DNA of 64,000 nt. Origin: Shinella zoogloeoides (GTDB lineage Bacteria; Pseudomonadota; Alphaproteobacteria; Rhizobiales; Rhizobiaceae). A program made the position numbers and the translations under genes. Each line of letters opens with the position of its first letter. The first letter of the stretch is position 1. The notes beneath the pieces are model-generated. The model was given only the letters and a program-made list of their open reading frames with translations, had not been told where the DNA came from and did not search any database. The DNA is taken from assembly GCF_003574625.1 (NCBI RefSeq), contig NZ_QNUJ01000006.1, positions 62,001-126,000 of the forward strand. Reading direction: 5' to 3'. Below are positions 7,568 through 47,479 of this stretch, piece after piece.

Positions 7568-8260
7568 ATGGCCGCCAAAGCGACAGAACTGGTCATCTTC
7601 GATTGCGACGGGGTGCTCGTCGACAGCGAACCCATCTCGATCACCGTTCTGGTCGAAGCGCTCGCCGCCGCGGGCGTCGCGATGAGCGAGGCGGAGGCGC
7701 ACGAACGCTTTCTCGGCCGCAGCCTCAAGAGCATGTCGGAAATCCTGCATGACGAATACGGCCTTGCTGTAGACGCGGCCTTCCTCGAGGCCATGCGCAA
7801 GGTGCTCTACGAGCGCTTCCGTTCGGAACTCCAGCCGATAGCCGGCGTCGCCGAGACCGTCGATGCGCTCGGCGTCGCCCATTGCGTGGCCTCGTCCAGC
7901 CAGCCGGAGCGCATCCGGCTGTCGCTTTCCGTGACCGGTCTCCTCGACTGCTTCGAGCCGAACATTTTCAGCGCCAGCATGGTCACCCACGGCAAGCCGG
8001 CGCCGGATCTCTTCCTCCATGCCAGCGCCGAGATGGGTGTGGACCCCGCGCGCTGCGTGGTGGTGGAGGACAGCCCCGCCGGCATCATGGCCGCCAAGGC
8101 CGCCGGCATGCGGGTCGTCGCCTTCACCGGCGGCTCCCATGCGCGCACGCCCCGTCATCGCGACGCGCTGCTCGACCTTCGCCCCGACGCGCTGTTTGAC
8201 GACATGCGGGAATTGTTACAGTTTGTCCGCGAGGAAGAGGACGTCGGGAAAGAGCATTGA
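7568..8260 (+). CDS. HAD-superfamily phosphatase (beta-phosphoglucomutase-like)
   Basis: A 230-residue HAD subfamily IA hydrolase: motif I FDCDGVLVDSEP near residue 10, a helical cap, motif II ASSSQPER, motif III lysine in HGKPAPD and motif IV VVEDSPAGI. It probably dephosphorylates a phosphosugar or phosphopolyol; the precise substrate cannot be read from sequence. It sits between mtlK and the kinase, and its stop overlaps the kinase start, so the two are coupled. Confidence 0.85.
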   Translation: MAAKATELVIFDCDGVLVDSEPISITVLVEALAAAGVAMSEAEAHERFLGRSLKSMSEILHDEYGLAVDAAFLEAMRKVLYERFRSELQPIAGVAETVDALGVAHCVASSSQPERIRLSLSVTGLLDCFEPNIFSASMVTHGKPAPDLFLHASAEMGVDPARCVVVEDSPAGIMAAKAAGMRVVAFTGGSHARTPRHRDALLDLRPDALFDDMRELLQFVREEEDVGKEH

Positions 8261-9840
8261 TGCGCGATCTGATCGTTGCGGTGGACATCGGCACGGGCAG
8301 TGCCCGCGCCGGTGTGTTCGACCGGAGCGGTGCGCTGCTCGGGCGTTCCGAGCATCCGATCGCCATGCGCCGCCCGGCGGCCGACCATGCCGAACACGAT
8401 TCCGAGGATATCTGGCGCGCCGTCTGCGGCGCGGTCCGGCGTGCCTGCGCGGCGGCGGATGCGCGCCCGTCGCGGGTCGCCGCGCTCGGCGTGGATGCGA
8501 CCTGCTCGCTGGTCGTCCGCGACGGGGCGGGAAAGCCGCTCGCCGTTTCCGGCGATGACGCGCGCTGGGATACGATCGTCTGGCTCGACCACCGGGCGCT
8601 GGAGGAGGCCGATGCCTGCACGGCGACGGCGCATCCGGTGCTTGATCATTCCGGGCGCGTGATGTCGCCGGAAATGGAAATGCCGAAGCTCATGTGGCTG
8701 AAGCGCCACCGGCCCGGGCAATGGGCCAAGGCCGGCTATTTCTTCGATCTCGCCGATTTCGTCACCTGGCGGGCGACGGGCTCGAATGCTCGCTCGCGCT
8801 GCACGATGACGGCCAAATGGAACTACCTTTCCCATGCGGAAAGGCCCTGGAGCGAGGATTTCCTCGCCGCGATCGGGCTCGAGGACGTGCGCGAGCGCGG
8901 GTCGCTGCCGCAAACGACCCTGCCCGTCGGGCAGGCGGTCGGGCGGCTCGCCGCCGGGGCGGCGGAAGACCTCGGGCTGGATACGGACTGCGTGGTCGCG
9001 AGCGGCCTCATCGATGCCTATGCCGGCGCCTTCGGCGTGCTCGGCCCGTTCGCCGGCGCGCCGGAAAAGCTGGAGCGGCAGCTTGCGCTGATCGGCGGGA
9101 CGTCGAGCTGCATCGTCGCCTTCGCGCGGGAAAAGAAATTCGGCTACGGCATGTGGGGACCCTATTACGAGGCGGTCCTGCCGGGCCTCTGGCTGCTGGA
9201 GGGCGGCCAGTCGGCGGCGGGCGCGCTACTCGATCACATCGTCGGCACGCACAGCGCCGGCGGCGAGCCCACGGCGGCAACGCATGCCCGGATCGTCGCG
9301 CGGATCGGAGAACTGCGGGCCGAAGAGGGCGAGGCCTTTGCAGAGCGGCTGCATGTCCTGCCCGATTTTCACGGCAACCGCTCGCCGCTCGCCGATCCCC
9401 ATGCCCTCGGCGTGATCAGCGGGCTGGCGCTCGATGCCTCCTTCGACGGGCTCTGCCGGCTCTACTGGCGGACCTCGGTCGCCATCGCGCTCGGCATCCG
9501 CCATATCCTCGAAAAGCTCGCCGACGGCGGCTATCCGCTCGATACGCTCCATGTCGCGGGCGGCCACGTGCGCAATCCGCTGCTGATGGAACTCTACCGG
9601 GACGTGACCGGCTGCCGTCTCGTCGTGCCGCAGACGCAGGACGCGGTGCTGCTCGGCACGGCGATGGCCGCGGCGGTTGCCGGCGGCCTCTATCCGGACC
9701 TGCCGGCGGCGGGATCAGGCATGTATCCGGGCGGGCGGGAATACCTGCCGGATACGACCCGAAAGGCCCGCTACGACCGGGATTTCCGGCGCTTCCTGGC
9801 GCTCTATCGCCATCGCGCCGAGCTCGACGCGATCGACTGA
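8260..9840 (+). CDS. FGGY-family carbohydrate kinase (ribulo-/xylulokinase-like)
   Basis: A 526-residue FGGY kinase. The ATPase phosphate-1 motif VDIGTGSARAG starts at residue 6, GGTSSC lies mid-protein, and VAGGHVRNPLL near 435 is the adenosine-binding segment. It most likely phosphorylates the ketopentose produced by the polyol dehydrogenases (D-xylulose or D-ribulose); which one is not decidable here. It is the last gene of the polyol operon, followed by a small-RNA locus whose terminator may also serve it. Confidence 0.85.
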   Translation: MRDLIVAVDIGTGSARAGVFDRSGALLGRSEHPIAMRRPAADHAEHDSEDIWRAVCGAVRRACAAADARPSRVAALGVDATCSLVVRDGAGKPLAVSGDDARWDTIVWLDHRALEEADACTATAHPVLDHSGRVMSPEMEMPKLMWLKRHRPGQWAKAGYFFDLADFVTWRATGSNARSRCTMTAKWNYLSHAERPWSEDFLAAIGLEDVRERGSLPQTTLPVGQAVGRLAAGAAEDLGLDTDCVVASGLIDAYAGAFGVLGPFAGAPEKLERQLALIGGTSSCIVAFAREKKFGYGMWGPYYEAVLPGLWLLEGGQSAAGALLDHIVGTHSAGGEPTAATHARIVARIGELRAEEGEAFAERLHVLPDFHGNRSPLADPHALGVISGLALDASFDGLCRLYWRTSVAIALGIRHILEKLADGGYPLDTLHVAGGHVRNPLLMELYRDVTGCRLVVPQTQDAVLLGTAMAAAVAGGLYPDLPAAGSGMYPGGREYLPDTTRKARYDRDFRRFLALYRHRAELDAID

Positions 9841-9868: not shown

Positions 9869-9893
9869 GGAACCAAATCGTGCGTCGCGTGTT
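9869..9893 (+). promoter_or_regulatory. EcfG (general stress sigma) promoter for the GsrN-like RNA
   Basis: GGAAC at 9869-9873, then 16 bases, then TGTT at 9890-9893, against the consensus GGAAC-N16/17-CGTT (equivalently GGAAC-N18-TT). It faces away from the kinase gene, into a region with no reading frame but strong RNA structure. Confidence 0.65.
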
Positions 9894-9898
9894 TCTAG

Positions 9899-10030
9899 GT
9901 CGTCACCGGTCTGCGCATATCCCCCAAATGCGAGGCCCTCGACCGGTGAACGACCACGACACCGTGTCCCCCTCCGGTCCGTGGATACTCAAGCAGCCAG
10001 TGCCTCCCCGGCGCTGGCTGTTTTCTCTTT
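9899..10030 (+). ncRNA. Probable general-stress small RNA, GsrN-like
   Basis: About 130 nt between an EcfG promoter and an intrinsic terminator, with no credible frame. A long stem (9898-9911 with 9941-9955, one bulged base, 13 pairs) encloses a hairpin CGCAT/ATGCG whose loop ATCCCCCAA (9919-9927) exposes five cytosines. A C-rich 5' loop, a sigma-EcfG promoter and a terminator hairpin define GsrN of Caulobacter, and homologues elsewhere in Alphaproteobacteria often sit near the GSR locus. Here it adjoins phyR. Structure and promoter are read directly; identity is inferred. Confidence 0.65.
9994..10030 (+). terminator. Rho-independent terminator of the small RNA (and polyol operon)
   Basis: An 11-bp stem with one G-T pair (CAGCCAGTGCC, 9994-10004, with GGCGCTGGCTG, 10010-10020), loop TCCCC, followed by TTTTCTCTTT. 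Confidence 0.8.
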
Positions 10031-10067: not shown

Positions 10068-10106
10068 AAAAAAAGGCGGCGGTGGGCGTGCCGTCCCACC
10101 GCCGCC
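10068..10106 (-). terminator. Rho-independent terminator of phyR
   Basis: Read on the minus strand: a perfect 12-bp stem (10095-10106 with 10075-10086), 8-base loop, then seven T (10074-10068). It lies about 35 bases after the phyR stop. Confidence 0.85.
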
Positions 10107-10141: not shown

Positions 10142-10936
10142 TCAGGCCGCTGCGCGGGTCTGCGGCGTAAAGAGGAGAGCCTGGTTGATCAGCACCTTCA
10201 CCTGTTCGGGATTGAAGGGCTTGGAGACGAGGAAGGCCGGTTCGGGCCGCTCGCCGGTCAGGAGCTTCTCCGGGTAGGCGGTGATGAAGATCACCGGGAT
10301 ATCCGTGCGCGAGAGGATGGTGTTGACGGCGTCGATGCCGGAGGAACCGTCGGCCAGCTTCACGTCGGCGAGCACGAGGCCGGGGCGGCTGTCGCTCCAC
10401 AGCGTCTCGGCCTCGGCCTGCGTGCGGGCGATTCCGGTGACGCGGTGGCCCATGCCGGCGACCATGTGGGCAAGATCGAGCGCGATTAGCGGCTCGTCCT
10501 CGATGATCATGATGCCCGTTTCCGCCTGTGCGGCGATTTCCGCGAAGGCGGCGTCGAGCAGGTCGCGGATGTCCGAGGCGTCCGCCTCGAGGATATCGGC
10601 GGTCTTTTCGACCGAGAAGCCCTCGACGGTTGCCAGCAGCAGGGCCTGCCGGCCGAGCGGCGGCACGCCGGAAAGATCGAAGGGCGCCTCCTTGCCCGGT
10701 GCGATGGCGCCGGCGGCCCGGCTCATGGAAACCGGCAGCGATGCGATGATGCGGCTGAGGAGCCCGAAGAGCCTTGCCTTGTCGTCTCCGCCTTCCGGCA
10801 TGGTCGAGGGATCGATGAGGATGGTTTCCAGAGTGGCTGCCACATAGGCATCGCCGGAGGACTGGGTGCCCGTAAGGGCGCGGGCGTAACGGCGAAGCGC
10901 CGGAAGATGAGGTCCGATGCGGTCGGAAATCGGCAT
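10142..10936 (-). CDS. phyR: General stress response anti-anti-sigma response regulator PhyR
   Basis: 264 residues, the normal PhyR length. Residues 1-135 form a sigma-like output domain resembling EcfG, and 140-255 form a receiver with acidic pocket E146/D147, phosphoacceptor D191 (LVLADVKL), the VIFITAYPEKLLTG motif and K239. When phosphorylated it binds NepR and frees EcfG. Start 10936 gives the canonical N-terminus after AGGGGACAG; an upstream in-frame codon would add an atypical leader. It is divergent from nepR-ecfG, with a perfect EcfG promoter. Confidence 0.95.
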   Translation of the reverse strand: MPISDRIGPHLPALRRYARALTGTQSSGDAYVAATLETILIDPSTMPEGGDDKARLFGLLSRIIASLPVSMSRAAGAIAPGKEAPFDLSGVPPLGRQALLLATVEGFSVEKTADILEADASDIRDLLDAAFAEIAAQAETGIMIIEDEPLIALDLAHMVAGMGHRVTGIARTQAEAETLWSDSRPGLVLADVKLADGSSGIDAVNTILSRTDIPVIFITAYPEKLLTGERPEPAFLVSKPFNPEQVKVLINQALLFTPQTRAAA

Positions 10937-10984
10937 ATTCTGTCCCCTGTTCTCGAATTGCTGCACTGGCAGTTGACGGTTTGA

Positions 10985-11009
10985 ACGCGGCAATCAAATT
11001 TAGGTTCCG
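10985..11009 (-). promoter_or_regulatory. EcfG promoter of phyR
   Basis: Minus strand GGAAC (11009-11005), 16 bases, then CGTT (10988-10985): an exact match to the general-stress consensus, about 50 bases before the phyR start. It supports positive feedback on phyR. Confidence 0.85.
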
Positions 11010-11095: not shown

Positions 11096-11284
11096 GTGAA
11101 TAGTGTTGAAAAGCAGACGAGGGCGGGGACGTCCTCCAGAAAACCCGACGATCCGAACGGGCAGATCGCGATGAAGCTTCGCGCCTTCTACCATTCGGTT
11201 CAGGATGAGGCGCTTCCCCAGAGGTTCCTGGATCTTCTCGAAAAATTGGATGCTGTCGAAAACAGCGTGCAAAGGGCCGAGTGA
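11096..11284 (+). CDS. nepR: Anti-sigma factor NepR
   Basis: 62 residues with the conserved NepR core IAMKLRAFYHSVQDEALP, which folds into helices that clamp EcfG or phosphorylated PhyR. The start is a GTG, because no ATG upstream is in frame and the only internal ATG would remove part of the conserved core. It precedes ecfG by 7 bases in the same transcript, giving autoregulated sigma and anti-sigma production. Confidence 0.93.
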   Translation: MNSVEKQTRAGTSSRKPDDPNGQIAMKLRAFYHSVQDEALPQRFLDLLEKLDAVENSVQRAE

Positions 11285-11291
11285 GGAAGCA

Positions 11292-11846
11292 ATGGACAGG
11301 GACCAGACCAATTTCAAACGAGAACTGCTGGCCGTTCTGCCGAGCCTGCGTGCCTTCGCCATTTCGCTGATCGGCCGCCACGACCAGGCGGACGATCTCG
11401 TGCAGGACACGATCATGAAAGCCTGGGCGAAGCAGGAACAGTTCGAGATGGGCACGAACATGAAGGCCTGGCTCTTCACGATCCTGCGCAACGAACTCTA
11501 CAGCAAGCTGCGCAAGCGCGGTCGCGAGGTGCAGGATTCCGACGGCATCTTCACCGAAAACCTCGCCCAGCACCCCTCCCAGTACGGCTCGCTGGACATG
11601 CAGGATTTCAAGAAGGCGCTGGAAAAGCTGCCGGACGAACAGCGCGAGGCCATCATCCTCGTCGGCGCTTCGGGCTTTTCCTACGAGGAGGCGGCGGAAA
11701 TCTGCGGCTGCGCCCTCGGCACGATCAAGAGCCGGGTCAACCGTGCCCGGCAGCGCCTGCAGGAGCTTCTGCAGGTCAGCGGCGAAAGCGACTACGGTCC
11801 GGACGCCGTGTCCGCGCCGATCACCTCTCGTGCATTCGCATCCTGA
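11292..11846 (+). CDS. ecfG: General stress response ECF sigma factor
   Basis: A 184-residue ECF15 sigma factor (EcfG, called RpoE2 in Ensifer). Region 2 includes DDLVQDTIMKAW (residues about 37-48), and region 4 carries the helix-turn-helix GFSYEEAAEICGCALGTIKS. The start follows GTGAGGAAG. The frame is open upstream, but the extension overlaps nepR and is not sigma-like. It recognises GGAAC-N16/17-CGTT promoters, several of which are in this window. Confidence 0.95.
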   Translation: MDRDQTNFKRELLAVLPSLRAFAISLIGRHDQADDLVQDTIMKAWAKQEQFEMGTNMKAWLFTILRNELYSKLRKRGREVQDSDGIFTENLAQHPSQYGSLDMQDFKKALEKLPDEQREAIILVGASGFSYEEAAEICGCALGTIKSRVNRARQRLQELLQVSGESDYGPDAVSAPITSRAFAS

Positions 11847-11964: not shown

Positions 11965-13470
11965 ATGAAGGACAACGCTCAGCCATTGCCGACCGGTGTA
12001 GCTGCGATTCTCGGCGCGCCGGAACGGCTTGCGGCGCTGCAAGCCGCCATGCCGGTCTTTCTTGGCCCCGATCCCGATTTCGACGACATCGCCGGCCTGG
12101 CCGCCGGTCTTGCCGACACTCCCATGGCCTTCGTCACCGTTCTCGGCCAGACGGACCAATGGTTCCTGGCGCGCCGCGGCACGCCGGAAATCCGCTTTCC
12201 CTCCCAGGAGACCTTTTGCGCACGGATGCTGGCGGAAAAGGGGGCGCCGCCGCTCATGGTGGCCGATGCGTCCAGGGATCCCCGCTTTTCCGGCCTGCCG
12301 AGCGTCAGCGGCGAGGCGCATGTTCGCTTCTATGCGGGCGCGCCGATCGTGATGGACGGCCAGCCCATCGGCACGGTCGCGGTCGCCGACAGGAAGGTCC
12401 GCACAGCCGCTGCCGACACCCTTCTGCCGCAACTCGCAAGGCTCGCCTCGCTCGCCGGCGTCCTGATCCGTCAGAAGGAAGAGGCGCGGCGGCGCATGCT
12501 GGCCGCCGAGGTCCTGTCGCGTGACGAGAAGCGTCATGCGCTGGCGCTCGACGCCGCCAATGTGGCGAGCTGGATGTGGGACCTCTCGACGGGCATCGTG
12601 TCGGGCAACGAGACCTTCCACCGCATGCTGGGCTTCCGTTCGACGCGGCCGATGAGCGCGCGCACCTTCTTCGGTGCGGTCCACCCCGCCGACCGCAAGA
12701 CGACCATCGACCGCCTGCGCAATGCGCTCGCCACCGGCAAGGAATATGACGGCCTGTTCCGTGCGTCCAAGTCGGGCCGCTGGCTGCTCGGCCGCGGCCG
12801 GGTGCATGAATGGGACGCGGAGGGCAAGCCGACCCTCTTCCTCGGCATCAATGTCGACGTCACCGACGGGCAGCTCGCCTCCGAGCGGACGCGGCTCCTG
12901 CTGCGCGAATTGAACCATCGCGTCAAGAACACGCTTGCCATGCTGCAGTCGCTCGCCCGCCAGACCCTTCGCCAGACGAGCGATCCGGTGGAGTTCATGG
13001 ATGCCTTCGCCGGCCGCCTGCAATCGCTTTCCGAGGCGCATGGGCTGCTCAGCGATCACGAATGGGGCGTCATCCATCTCAAGATGCTGCTGCAGAAGCA
13101 GATCATGCCCTATGCGCTCGATTACGAGAGCCAGGTCGAGATCCACAAGGACGAGGTGGAGCTGGGGCCGGACGAGGCCGTCGGCCTCGGCCTCGTGCTG
13201 CACGAGCTTGCCACCAATGCCCGCAAATACGGGGCGCTCTCGGTCGCCACCGGCAAGGTGGTGATCACGGCGCGCATCGTCAACGAAGAGGGCCGCCGCG
13301 TGCTCAACATGACCTGGCACGAGGTCGGCGGGCCGCCGGTCAATCCGAACGGGCGGCGCGGCTTCGGCTCCGTGCTGATCGAGCGCAGCCTCGACAAGAT
13401 CCTCGGCAGCAGCGTGCATGTCGAATACCTGCCGAAGGGCGTGACCGCCGTCGTGCGGATGCCGCTGTAG
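11965..13470 (+). CDS. HWE/HisKA_2 sensor histidine kinase with GAF and PAS domains (probable PhyR kinase)
   Basis: A 501-residue soluble kinase with no membrane helix. GAF domain about 30-165 (SQETFCARML; YAGAPIVMDG), PAS about 190-300 (WMWDLSTGIVSGNETFHRML), then a kinase core with phospho-acceptor H318 in LRELNHRVKNTL and the N-box HELATNARKYGAL. HWE/HisKA_2 kinases encoded beside ecfG typically phosphorylate PhyR. Here the cytosolic GAF-PAS input suggests an internal signal. Partner assignment rests on position. Confidence 0.88.
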   Translation: MKDNAQPLPTGVAAILGAPERLAALQAAMPVFLGPDPDFDDIAGLAAGLADTPMAFVTVLGQTDQWFLARRGTPEIRFPSQETFCARMLAEKGAPPLMVADASRDPRFSGLPSVSGEAHVRFYAGAPIVMDGQPIGTVAVADRKVRTAAADTLLPQLARLASLAGVLIRQKEEARRRMLAAEVLSRDEKRHALALDAANVASWMWDLSTGIVSGNETFHRMLGFRSTRPMSARTFFGAVHPADRKTTIDRLRNALATGKEYDGLFRASKSGRWLLGRGRVHEWDAEGKPTLFLGINVDVTDGQLASERTRLLLRELNHRVKNTLAMLQSLARQTLRQTSDPVEFMDAFAGRLQSLSEAHGLLSDHEWGVIHLKMLLQKQIMPYALDYESQVEIHKDEVELGPDEAVGLGLVLHELATNARKYGALSVATGKVVITARIVNEEGRRVLNMTWHEVGGPPVNPNGRRGFGSVLIERSLDKILGSSVHVEYLPKGVTAVVRMPL

Positions 13471-14040: not shown

Positions 14041-14439
14041 TCAGCGCCGCAGCAGTGCGGCCAGCAGGAAGCCGGCGGCGGCGGCAACGCCGAGCGTCGT
14101 CAGCGGATGCTCCTTGACGGCCTTGCGGGCCATGCGGCCGGAATCCTGGTAGCGGGACTGGAGTTCGGAGAGGATGTCCTCGCCGGCGGCGATCATGTCG
14201 CGGAAGTCGCCTTCCGCGCGGTCCTTCAGGCCGTGCGCGGCGTCGCTCATCTCGGCCTTGGCCGCCCGGGCCCTCTTGCGGATGTTTCCCGCCCCCTTCG
14301 AGGCGTCGGTGGCGAGCAGGCGGGTGAGCGAGGCGATTTCCTCGCGCAGTTCCGTGATCTGGTCCTCGACGGCCTGGGCTTCGTCCTTGAGCCCGTTTTT
14401 GAGGGTCTTGCTGCGGGATGAAAACATTCCGTTGGCCAT
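14041..14439 (-). CDS. DUF883 (ElaB/YqjD-like) membrane-anchored protein
   Basis: 132 residues: a long amphipathic, probably coiled region (20-100, ending SELQSRYQDSG) and one C-terminal membrane helix (TTLGVAAAAGFLLAALL), the hallmark of ElaB/YqjD proteins that tether ribosomes to the inner membrane in E. coli. Start 14439 follows AAAGGAG; a longer frame upstream lacks such a site and would run through the promoter. Induction by EcfG is predicted from the exact promoter upstream. Confidence 0.85.
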   Translation of the reverse strand: MANGMFSSRSKTLKNGLKDEAQAVEDQITELREEIASLTRLLATDASKGAGNIRKRARAAKAEMSDAAHGLKDRAEGDFRDMIAAGEDILSELQSRYQDSGRMARKAVKEHPLTTLGVAAAAGFLLAALLRR

Positions 14440-14523: not shown

Positions 14524-14548
14524 AACGTGCAATGTCGCAAAAGGTTCC
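14524..14548 (-). promoter_or_regulatory. EcfG promoter of the DUF883-DUF1469 pair
   Basis: Minus strand GGAAC (14548-14544), 16 bases, CGTT (14527-14524): exact consensus, 85 bases before the DUF883 start. It places the membrane pair in the general stress regulon. Confidence 0.8.
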
Positions 14549-45989: not shown

Positions 45990-47303
45990 TTACTTGGCGC
46001 GGGCGCGGTAGATCGTGTCGAGCCAGACGGCGACCACGAGGACCACACCGACAACGATGCGCTGGAACGGGGTGTCGATGCCGACCAGCACCATGCCCGA
46101 TTGCAGCGATTGCATGACGAGAGCGCCGAGCATGGCGCCCGCGATGGTGCCCATGCCGCCGCCGAGCGAGGTGCCGCCGATGACGGCGGCCGCGATGGTA
46201 TAGAGCTCGTCGAGCTCGCCCTGCGCATTGGTCGCGGCGTTGAGGCGGGCGGTCGAGATGGCGGCGGCGATGGCGCAGAGCATGCCCATCAGCGCGAAGA
46301 TCTTGACCGTGACCCAGCGCGTCTTGATGCCGGCGAGCTCGGCGGCTTCCTGGTTGCCGCCTATGGCGAAGACATAGCGGCCGAAGCGCAGGCGCGTCGA
46401 GATGAAGGTCATGACGATGCCGACGACGATGGCGATCAGCACGGGAATGGCGATGCCGTGCGGGATGAAGAGGCCGCCGTCCGGCCAGGCGATGCCGTTG
46501 GCATCGGCATATCTGCGGGCGATGGCGACGGGCCAGGGATAGCTGTTGACGACCCCGACGGCGCCGAGCACCAGCGCGCAGCCGATGGCGACGAGGAAAC
46601 ATTCGGCCCACATGGGGCGCAGCGGAAAGCCGAAGCGCTTGCGCTGCTTGCGGGAATTGGCGATCGTCGCGACGATGGCGACACAGGCGAGGGCGCCGAC
46701 GATCCAGCTTGCCGTCGCGCCGATCGAGCCCTCGGTGCCGCCGCCCATCAGGCGGAAGGTGGCGTCCATCGGGGCGACGGTGCGGCCGCTCGTGACGAAC
46801 CAGGTGGCGCCGCGCCAGACGAGCAGGCCGCCAAGCGTGACGATGAAGGACGGCACGTTCATGAAGGCGATGATCGAGCCTTGCAGCGCGCCGATGGCGG
46901 CGCCGAGCAGAAGGCCGGCGAGCAGCGTGACGATCCAGGTAGCCGGATGGTTGAAGCCGAGAAGCTGCGGCAGCAGCTCGGCCTGCAGCACGCCCATGAT
47001 CATGCCGACGAAGCCGAGGATCGAGCCGACGGAAAGGTCGATGTTGCGCGTGACGATGACCAGCACCATGCCGGTCGCCATCACGGCGACGGAGGCGGTC
47101 TGGACGGAGAGGTTCCAGAGGTTTCGCGGCGTCAGGAACAGGCCGCCGGACAGGAAGTTGAAGCCGATCCAGATGATCAGCAGCGCGCCGACCATGCCGA
47201 GCAGGCGCGTGTCGATCTCGGTCGCGCGGAAGAAGCGCTTCACCGGATTCTCGCTCGCCGAGCGCGCACGGTTGGCATGTGCGGTATTCGTGATGTCGGC
47301 CAT
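45990..47303 (-). CDS. xylH: Sugar (xylose-type) ABC transporter permease
   Basis: A 437-residue CUT2 permease with more than ten membrane helices. The length, due to an inserted loop around residues 225-300 ([15 protein letters not shown]... to DGGLFIPHG), is typical of XylH rather than RbsC. The motif [21 protein letters not shown] is the family cytoplasmic loop. Lies 14 bases before xylG. Confidence 0.87.
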
Positions 47304-47479
47304 GGTCTTGCCGTCCCCCTCACTTTTGTTGAACGTTCGTTTCGGGCACGCAGTTCGTGTGCTGCTTCTTGAAAGGATGGATCCGCATCATCCTCCGCCC
47401 GCTGTCCATCTTGCGCAAGCGCCGCAACGGTGTCGTTGCGGCGCCTGGCGATGGTCAGGTCATTACCGGTTGATCGGGC

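Follow-up and report, generated by a model that had tools for sequence, protein, structure and literature searches.

In Shinella zoogloeoides, the gap between a sugar kinase gene and phyR is very probably the site of a small-RNA gene that has a promoter of the stress type. We propose that its product is a trans-acting sRNA of the general stress response (GSR), the Shinella counterpart of ReC64 of R. etli and of the phyR-adjacent RNAs put forward by Tien et al. in 2018 as putative GsrN homologues; we give this reading a probability of roughly 0.83. The RNA belongs to a kind already described, an EcfG-driven sRNA at the phyR locus, as in R. etli, and our literature search returned nothing on a phyR-adjacent sRNA in Shinella. 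New here are a structure supported by covariation, a second loop that resembles an anti-Shine-Dalgarno sequence, and a hint of RNAs at the same place in further genera. The 2018 list of Rhizobiaceae RNAs becomes an RNA family with a structure backed by compensatory changes and with two conserved C-rich loops. A first estimate of the range of this family, together with its known false positives, makes the RNA annotatable and tests of loops and targets specific. The DNA analysed, referred to as the window, is the whole stretch of 64,000 nucleotides, and positions are those of the window unless a contig is named.

The phyR locus and its EcfG-type promoters

The window contains a standard PhyR-NepR-EcfG partner switch, comprising phyR, nepR, ecfG and an HWE histidine kinase locus (Table 1). 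The nearest named relatives of its PhyR are from Shinella (84–93% identity). The sRNA gene is held within this phyR-nepR-ecfG locus, downstream of phyR and convergent with it, with a predicted 5' end at about 9898–9902 from the spacing of the promoter. The earlier note had argued that the RNA is not a phyR leader, and the arrangement agrees: the sRNA lies on the plus strand, phyR on the minus strand, and phyR has a terminator-like site of its own. Because this predicted terminator lies at 10106–10075 on the minus strand, the transcripts of the sRNA and of phyR are predicted to converge without overlap.

The far flank of the sRNA gene is occupied by an FGGY-family kinase gene. This kinase is not part of the stress system, since there are lineages that keep the RNA and show no kinase match in the fetched flanks. 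A frame of 96 codons also runs over the sRNA; we rejected a coding reading of it, as the frame is mechanical and one-base indels between orthologues ignore it.

An EcfG-type promoter, properly spaced before an RNA of ~130 nt, had been reported from the letters alone, and the GGAAC-N17-GTT pattern is indeed present at that spacing. Another copy precedes phyR. Within the window the pattern occurs four times against 1.19 expected, a count reached by 3 of 100 shuffles. A further EcfG-type promoter (14524–14548, minus strand) is followed after ~85 bases by a DUF883-family gene on the same strand, whose start lies near 14439; judged by this pattern, the gene is likely to be a further member of the stress regulon.

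Table 1. Positions of the sRNA, its parts and the neighbouring genes in the window.
Feature	Position	Strand	Basis or remark
FGGY-family pentulose kinase	8257..9840	+	far flank of sRNA; outside the system
EcfG-type promoter of sRNA, GGAAC-N17-GTT	9869..9893	+	pattern match; spacing proper
sRNA gene, ~125-130 nt	9898..10028	+	fold and match to covariance model R1 (146.4 bits); 5' end predicted by promoter spacing
Hairpin 1	9898..9955	+	outer stem 9898-9911/9941-9955; inner stem 9914-9918/9928-9932; 3' bulge 9933-9940
Loop 1, 9 bases, AUCCCCCAA, five C	9919..9927	+	presumed mRNA-pairing site
Hairpin 2	9954..9984	+	stems 9954-9958/9980-9984 and 9961-9964/9975-9978; missed by the earlier note
Loop 2, UGUCCCCCUC, five C, anti-Shine-Dalgarno-like	9965..9974	+	C4 run in 53/53 orthologous sequences
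Intrinsic terminator, C-rich loop, U-rich tail	9991..10028	+	14 pairs at 9991-10023, then TCTCTTT
Predicted phyR terminator	10075..10106	-	terminator-like site; between phyR and sRNA
phyR	10142..10936	-	PRK09191; PF22029, PF22233, PF00072
EcfG-type promoter of phyR, GGAAC-N17-GTT	10984..11008	-	pattern match
nepR	11096..11284	+	PF18557
ecfG	11292..11846	+	PRK12516, PRK12547; sigma-70 regions 2 and 4
HWE histidine kinase (GAF-PAS-HWE)	11965..13470	+	PF07536

Structure and range of the RNA

The minimum-energy fold of positions 9897–10030 has a free energy of −60.9 kcal/mol, compared to a mean of −40.6 kcal/mol for shuffled sequences (z −5.3), and none of 200 shuffles was as low. This fold reproduces, base for base, the nested stem and the nine-base inner loop with five C residues that had been drawn by inspection. 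The strong intrinsic terminator described alongside them is likewise recovered as a 14-pair stem and tail, although terminator-like sites as such are common (five in 3.5 kb versus 2.8 expected). The minimum-energy fold of the window itself over these positions lacks hairpin 2, whose base is in competition with the final two pairs of hairpin 1. Nevertheless, of the 53 orthologous sequences, 51 have a C-rich hairpin loop at the place of hairpin 2 in their best fold, all but the window and one other locus (L033).

We compared the window to related loci. The sRNA was found downstream of phyR, on the opposite strand and with an EcfG motif, in 21 of 23 PhyR loci (L029–L051; 22 rhizobial and one from Pseudovibrio). 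The remaining pair, L050 and L051, gave no covariance-model match and were dropped from the set; the covariance model R1 was built from the window and the 21 loci. With BLAST, the sRNA sequence gave matches in 23 of 297 family genomes; in 12 of these the match covers no more than the last 30–40 bases, the terminator end. R1 matched in 55 of 394 family genomes (E <= 0.01). All 55 matches were inspected, and 52 adjoin a sugar kinase, PhyR or an HWE kinase, including three (G337, G369 and G297) with an HWE-type kinase alone within the short stretch fetched. The other three matches (L123, L125 and L126) have none of these neighbours and no promoter, and were discarded as false. Since many of the matches are weak by score, the shared place provides independent support for them, and the position beside phyR, an element of the original proposal, is kept across the relatives. 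In several lineages phyR and the RNA are separated by a histidine kinase gene, an arrangement reported for R. etli as well, and loci with the order kinase, sRNA, histidine kinase, phyR also match R1.

The stems are supported by two alignments. In the alignment of the Shinella group (A1, 22 sequences) 95.8% of cells pair, with double changes in 7 of 34 pairs (24 cells, versus a mean of 6.2 in 500 shuffles, none of which was as high). The second, independent alignment (A4) comprises 23 Rhizobium- and Sinorhizobium-like members; it omits the Shinella group together with L088, L090–L093, L110, L111 and L117, and near-identical loci of the same genomes were entered once. Here 92.5% of cells pair, with double changes in 11 of 33 pairs (26 cells, versus a mean of 9.3 in 500 shuffles, again with none as high). 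The shuffles leave the relatedness of the sequences in place. When the partners were slid by one to three columns, pairing fell to 27–43%. One of the five measures, further pair types, was not above the shuffles, as 344 of 500 (A1) and 215 of 500 (A4) reached the observed value.

Hairpin 1 carries the strongest covariation signal, and there is little variation in hairpin 2 and in the terminator; the lower stem of hairpin 2 is unpaired in six rows of A1. The earlier note had singled out the outer stem of hairpin 1 as the place to look for compensatory changes, and these are present, with both sides changed in five of its eight pairs. Loss of the C-rich loop in close relatives had been named as a point that would speak against the RNA. 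Instead, loop 1 keeps at least four consecutive C in 50 of the 53 distinct orthologous sequences, and the three that lack such a run (L110, L111 and L117) belong to one genus.

The range of the family was explored with a further model, R2, which matched in 49 of 247 family genomes, a count that includes some transporter coding sequence and in which the neighbours of a minority of the weaker matches were inspected. Outside the family, all 17 order-level matches and the single class-level match (289 class genomes) had no GSR genes within about 1.5 kb, in R2 searches that over 40 genomes use strict filters, at which weak matches are lost. Thus, as far as the models see it, the RNA family is confined to part of the GTDB family of Shinella.

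False R2 matches of 96 nt were noted at G000:C23:221218-221313 in the window's own genome, in L157 and in L173, and a longer one in L177. They reach E values down to 1e-6 and read as transporter coding sequence by eye. Their recurrence is a warning for covariance searches in GC-rich genomes. Separately, three loci of another family in the same order (f2; L158, L159 and L161) hold an RNA-like element with three hairpins by eye and the C-rich loops CCCCCC, CCCTCC and CCCTCCCCCC. This element has no EcfG motif in the 60 bases upstream, no GSR genes in its locus and no Rfam match at the cut-off.

PhyR is present in 91 of 111 family genomes, and 14 of those 91 have the sRNA. From the other 77 PhyR genomes we took 59, one per genus, and analysed the stretch downstream of phyR by position. 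In 12 of the 59 genera the strand opposite phyR shows an EcfG motif and, after it, a well-folded, C-rich RNA and a U-run, compared to 1 of 59 in the same-strand control; this comparison is exploratory, because the filter was chosen after a first look and the fold z-scores come from 30 simple shuffles each. An HWE-kinase match accompanies 11 of the 12 candidates and 48 of all 59 loci. Six loci (L183, L189, L206, L209, L219 and L222) share a plan of a C-run hairpin, a second C-run hairpin and a terminator. The 12 candidates hint, on this exploratory footing, that their genera may likewise carry a C-rich RNA driven by EcfG downstream of phyR. The window's own genome also has a second PhyR (G000:C26:276715-277503; locus L202), which is 54% identical to that of the window; near it lie EcfG-like motifs on both strands, and there is no R1 match.

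Relation to known RNAs and rival readings

We compared the Shinella sRNA to described RNAs of the general stress response. ReC64 of R. etli is encoded downstream of phyR-tcrY, in the ecfG1-phyR region, and has an EcfG1 motif with which the start found by 5' RACE agrees; a ReC64 reporter fusion is silent in ecfG1 mutants, EcfG switches ReC64 on in E. coli, and the length is reported as 88 nt (Jans et al. 2013, PMC3892343). An additional band of larger size has been observed, and ReC64 was detected in stationary phase (Vercruysse et al. 2010, PMC2881028). A further report describes over-expression of ReC64 in saline shock and assigns overlapping SigA and RpoH promoters to it, not EcfG (PMC4167512). 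ReC64 shares with the Shinella sRNA the site downstream of phyR, the EcfG promoter and its trans-encoded nature. The two differ in length, 88 nt for ReC64 versus ~128 nt predicted for Shinella, and the likeness is one of position and promoter description. An 88-nt ReC64 and a larger band would fit a full-length RNA plus a processed piece. Unlike R. etli, where tcrY is found there, Shinella has no histidine kinase between phyR and the RNA.

Putative GsrN homologues were proposed in R. etli, S. meliloti and B. abortus on the basis of position, promoter and transcript evidence, and the Rhizobiaceae RNAs were described as exposing a 5' loop rich in cytosine (Tien et al. 2018, PMC5869019). SmelC601 of S. 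meliloti has 127 nt, a predicted RpoE2 promoter and a position on the minus strand at 2,625,313–2,625,439 (PMC7143759), and on the large chromosomes of three genomes (G373, G138 and G302) our sRNA lies at a broadly comparable place. SmelC601 may be the same RNA as that of Shinella, a guess from coordinates and promoter. Bsr6 of Brucella abortus needs the GSR sigma factor RpoE1 and carries an RpoE1 promoter box (PMC12772402); our comparison of it with the Shinella sRNA covers the sigma-factor dependence and the promoter box.

An alternative is that the sRNA and Caulobacter GsrN share descent and that the sRNA acts mainly by stabilising katG mRNA, which we consider unlikely. Both RNAs use the same sigma factor and expose a C-rich 5' loop, and gsrN lies near GSR genes in Caulobacteraceae other than C. 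crescentus (PMC5869019). However, the BLASTn homologues of GsrN reported by Tien et al. are in Caulobacteraceae only (PMC5869019), and the R2 matches outside the Shinella family, at the level of order and class alike, were found away from GSR genes. GsrN of C. crescentus is ~100 nt long, is processed to a 5' piece of 51–54 nt, is encoded away from the GSR locus, and has six tandem C in its loop versus five in loop 1 of Shinella (PMC5869019). No sequence or model match links the Shinella sRNA to C. crescentus GsrN, in an R2 search of 289 class genomes with strict filters. katG is present in 19 of 21 genomes of the genus Shinella, and inspection by eye of the katG leaders of 20 loci revealed no obvious G-run for loop 1, a partial view, as the starts are uncertain and at least five loci (L244, L252, L254, L256 and L257) were read in the wrong frame. 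The GsrN-like general-stress sRNA of the earlier note stands as a description, whereas homology to Caulobacter GsrN was not found.

A second alternative, which we hold to be very improbable, takes the hairpins for nothing more than a terminator region, in the 3' untranslated end of the operon of the sugar kinase, and the EcfG-like motif before them for a coincidence. The sRNA starts ~60 bases past the stop codon of the kinase gene, on the same strand, so read-through transcripts from the kinase would also end at the sRNA terminator, and, as noted above, the window has four copies of the promoter pattern, more than the number expected. The relatives argue against this. A strict EcfG motif lies upstream of 45 of the 53 distinct orthologues and a relaxed form upstream of all 53. 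These counts are in part circular: the promoter pattern served to select the named loci in the first place, and to set most of the other orthologue ends. The fairer count is that of loci picked by the model alone: GGAA-N15-20-GTT occurs in 26 of the 35 such loci with shared neighbours, and the remaining nine have a near form, GGAAC with ATT in place of GTT, versus 0 of the 3 without shared neighbours. The sRNA is still present, with promoter or phyR, where the fetched flank has no kinase match (L091–L093, L110, L111, L117 and L145–L149). In addition, the covariation and the kept C-runs indicate selection on stems and loops upstream of the terminator.

It is equally improbable, in our view, that the sRNA is a member of another C-rich rhizobial sRNA family, such as ar7, in place of a separate phyR-linked family. 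Its best sub-threshold match in Rfam (release 15), a full-length one, is to ar7 (RF02342), at 20.3 bits (E 0.2). ar14 RNAs resemble the Shinella sRNA too, with three hairpins and anti-Shine-Dalgarno loops (PMC7143759), although the promoter assigned to NfeR1, an ar14 RNA, is of the sigma-70 type (PMC7143759), unlike that of the Shinella sRNA. Against ar7, the score reaches one third of the gathering cut-off (60 bits), 8 of 14 control genomes likewise give ar7 matches below threshold, and the window's own genome has a separate ar7 gene elsewhere that scores 116.1 bits. At gathering scores, one tRNA is the only Rfam hit in the window, and 20 loci carrying relatives or candidates give none. Elsewhere in the window's genome, at G000:C12:91504-91612 (L026), a weak ar7-like match scores 20.2 bits.

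Finally, the convergent orientation might suggest an element that acts in cis on phyR, by antisense or interference, a reading we give hardly any weight, as the predicted phyR terminator between the two genes should keep the transcripts from overlapping and many relatives have a histidine-kinase gene between sRNA and phyR.

Proposed action and candidate targets

The anti-Shine-Dalgarno loops of rhizobial RNAs pair with G-rich sites on mRNAs. The Shinella sRNA probably acts in trans through its C-rich loops on G-rich mRNA sites. Its expression in Shinella, its use of Hfq, its targets and the direction of regulation are what we infer in the following scheme. Activated PhyR would free EcfG from NepR, and EcfG would transcribe the sRNA gene. 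The RNA of ~130 nt would fold into three hairpins, and the C-runs in loop 1 and loop 2 would pair with G-rich stretches of mRNAs, mostly at or near ribosome-binding sites, which would alter the translation or the stability of the mRNA. Some targets could be activated instead, as katG is by GsrN, which pairs with katG mRNA (PMC5869019).

A more specific idea concerns phyR itself. Loop 2 (UGUCCCC) of the EcfG-made RNA might pair with the phyR ribosome-binding site and limit PhyR synthesis, and might also curb sugar ABC transporters, such as the permease encoded at 45990–47303, with the RNA as a standing part of the partner switch; we regard this as unlikely. If it is true, the stress response would be self-limiting via feedback of the sRNA on phyR, and a phyR-adjacent, EcfG-driven RNA would be kept by position across Rhizobiaceae even where its sequence has drifted beyond recognition.

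The ribosome-binding site of phyR is unusual (AGGGGAC at 10942–10948, minus strand), and its CAGGG is kept in 20 of 22 loci. The site opposite loop 2 reads GGGGACA in the window, and relatives have longer forms, up to GUGUCCCC/GGGGACAC. In all 22 loci, 5–8 contiguous bases of the phyR leader pair with loop 2. However, cognate pairs of phyR leader and loop 2 were no better than permuted ones over the 22 loci (p 0.16; Shinella alone p 0.03), and 27 of 500 shuffled loops paired with the phyR leader as well as loop 2 does, so chance suffices. Among 54 leaders in the window, with genes from a home-made caller, phyR ranks seventh for pairing with loop 2. A wider set of 33 loci gave p 0.0001 and was not counted, as the loops of L118 and L121 had been taken from the wrong strand; it was also discounted because the loops of the Mycoplana group pair better with Shinella leaders than with their own.

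For loop 1, we searched the window's own genome for its exact complement, TTGGGGGAT, which occurs at eight places, one of them the sRNA itself, versus one for the reversed pattern. We rejected this excess as evidence of targets: none of the other seven places is clearly a leader, and some, L258 and L262 among them, lie inside coding frames.

The best partner of loop 2 in the window is the leader of a sugar ABC permease gene (45990–47303), which offers nine complementary bases, GAGGGGGAC, at 47313–47321 on the minus strand. This leader is a lead only, because any G-rich ribosome-binding site pairs with C-runs. The ribosome-binding site of the permease is G-rich in all 20 loci of the genus, in varying form, with GGGGGAC in 14. 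Across these 20 loci the leader has the form GAGGGGGAC in seven and GGGGGGAC in another seven, and the other six have GGGGGAAC, GAGGGGAAC or GAGGGAAC.
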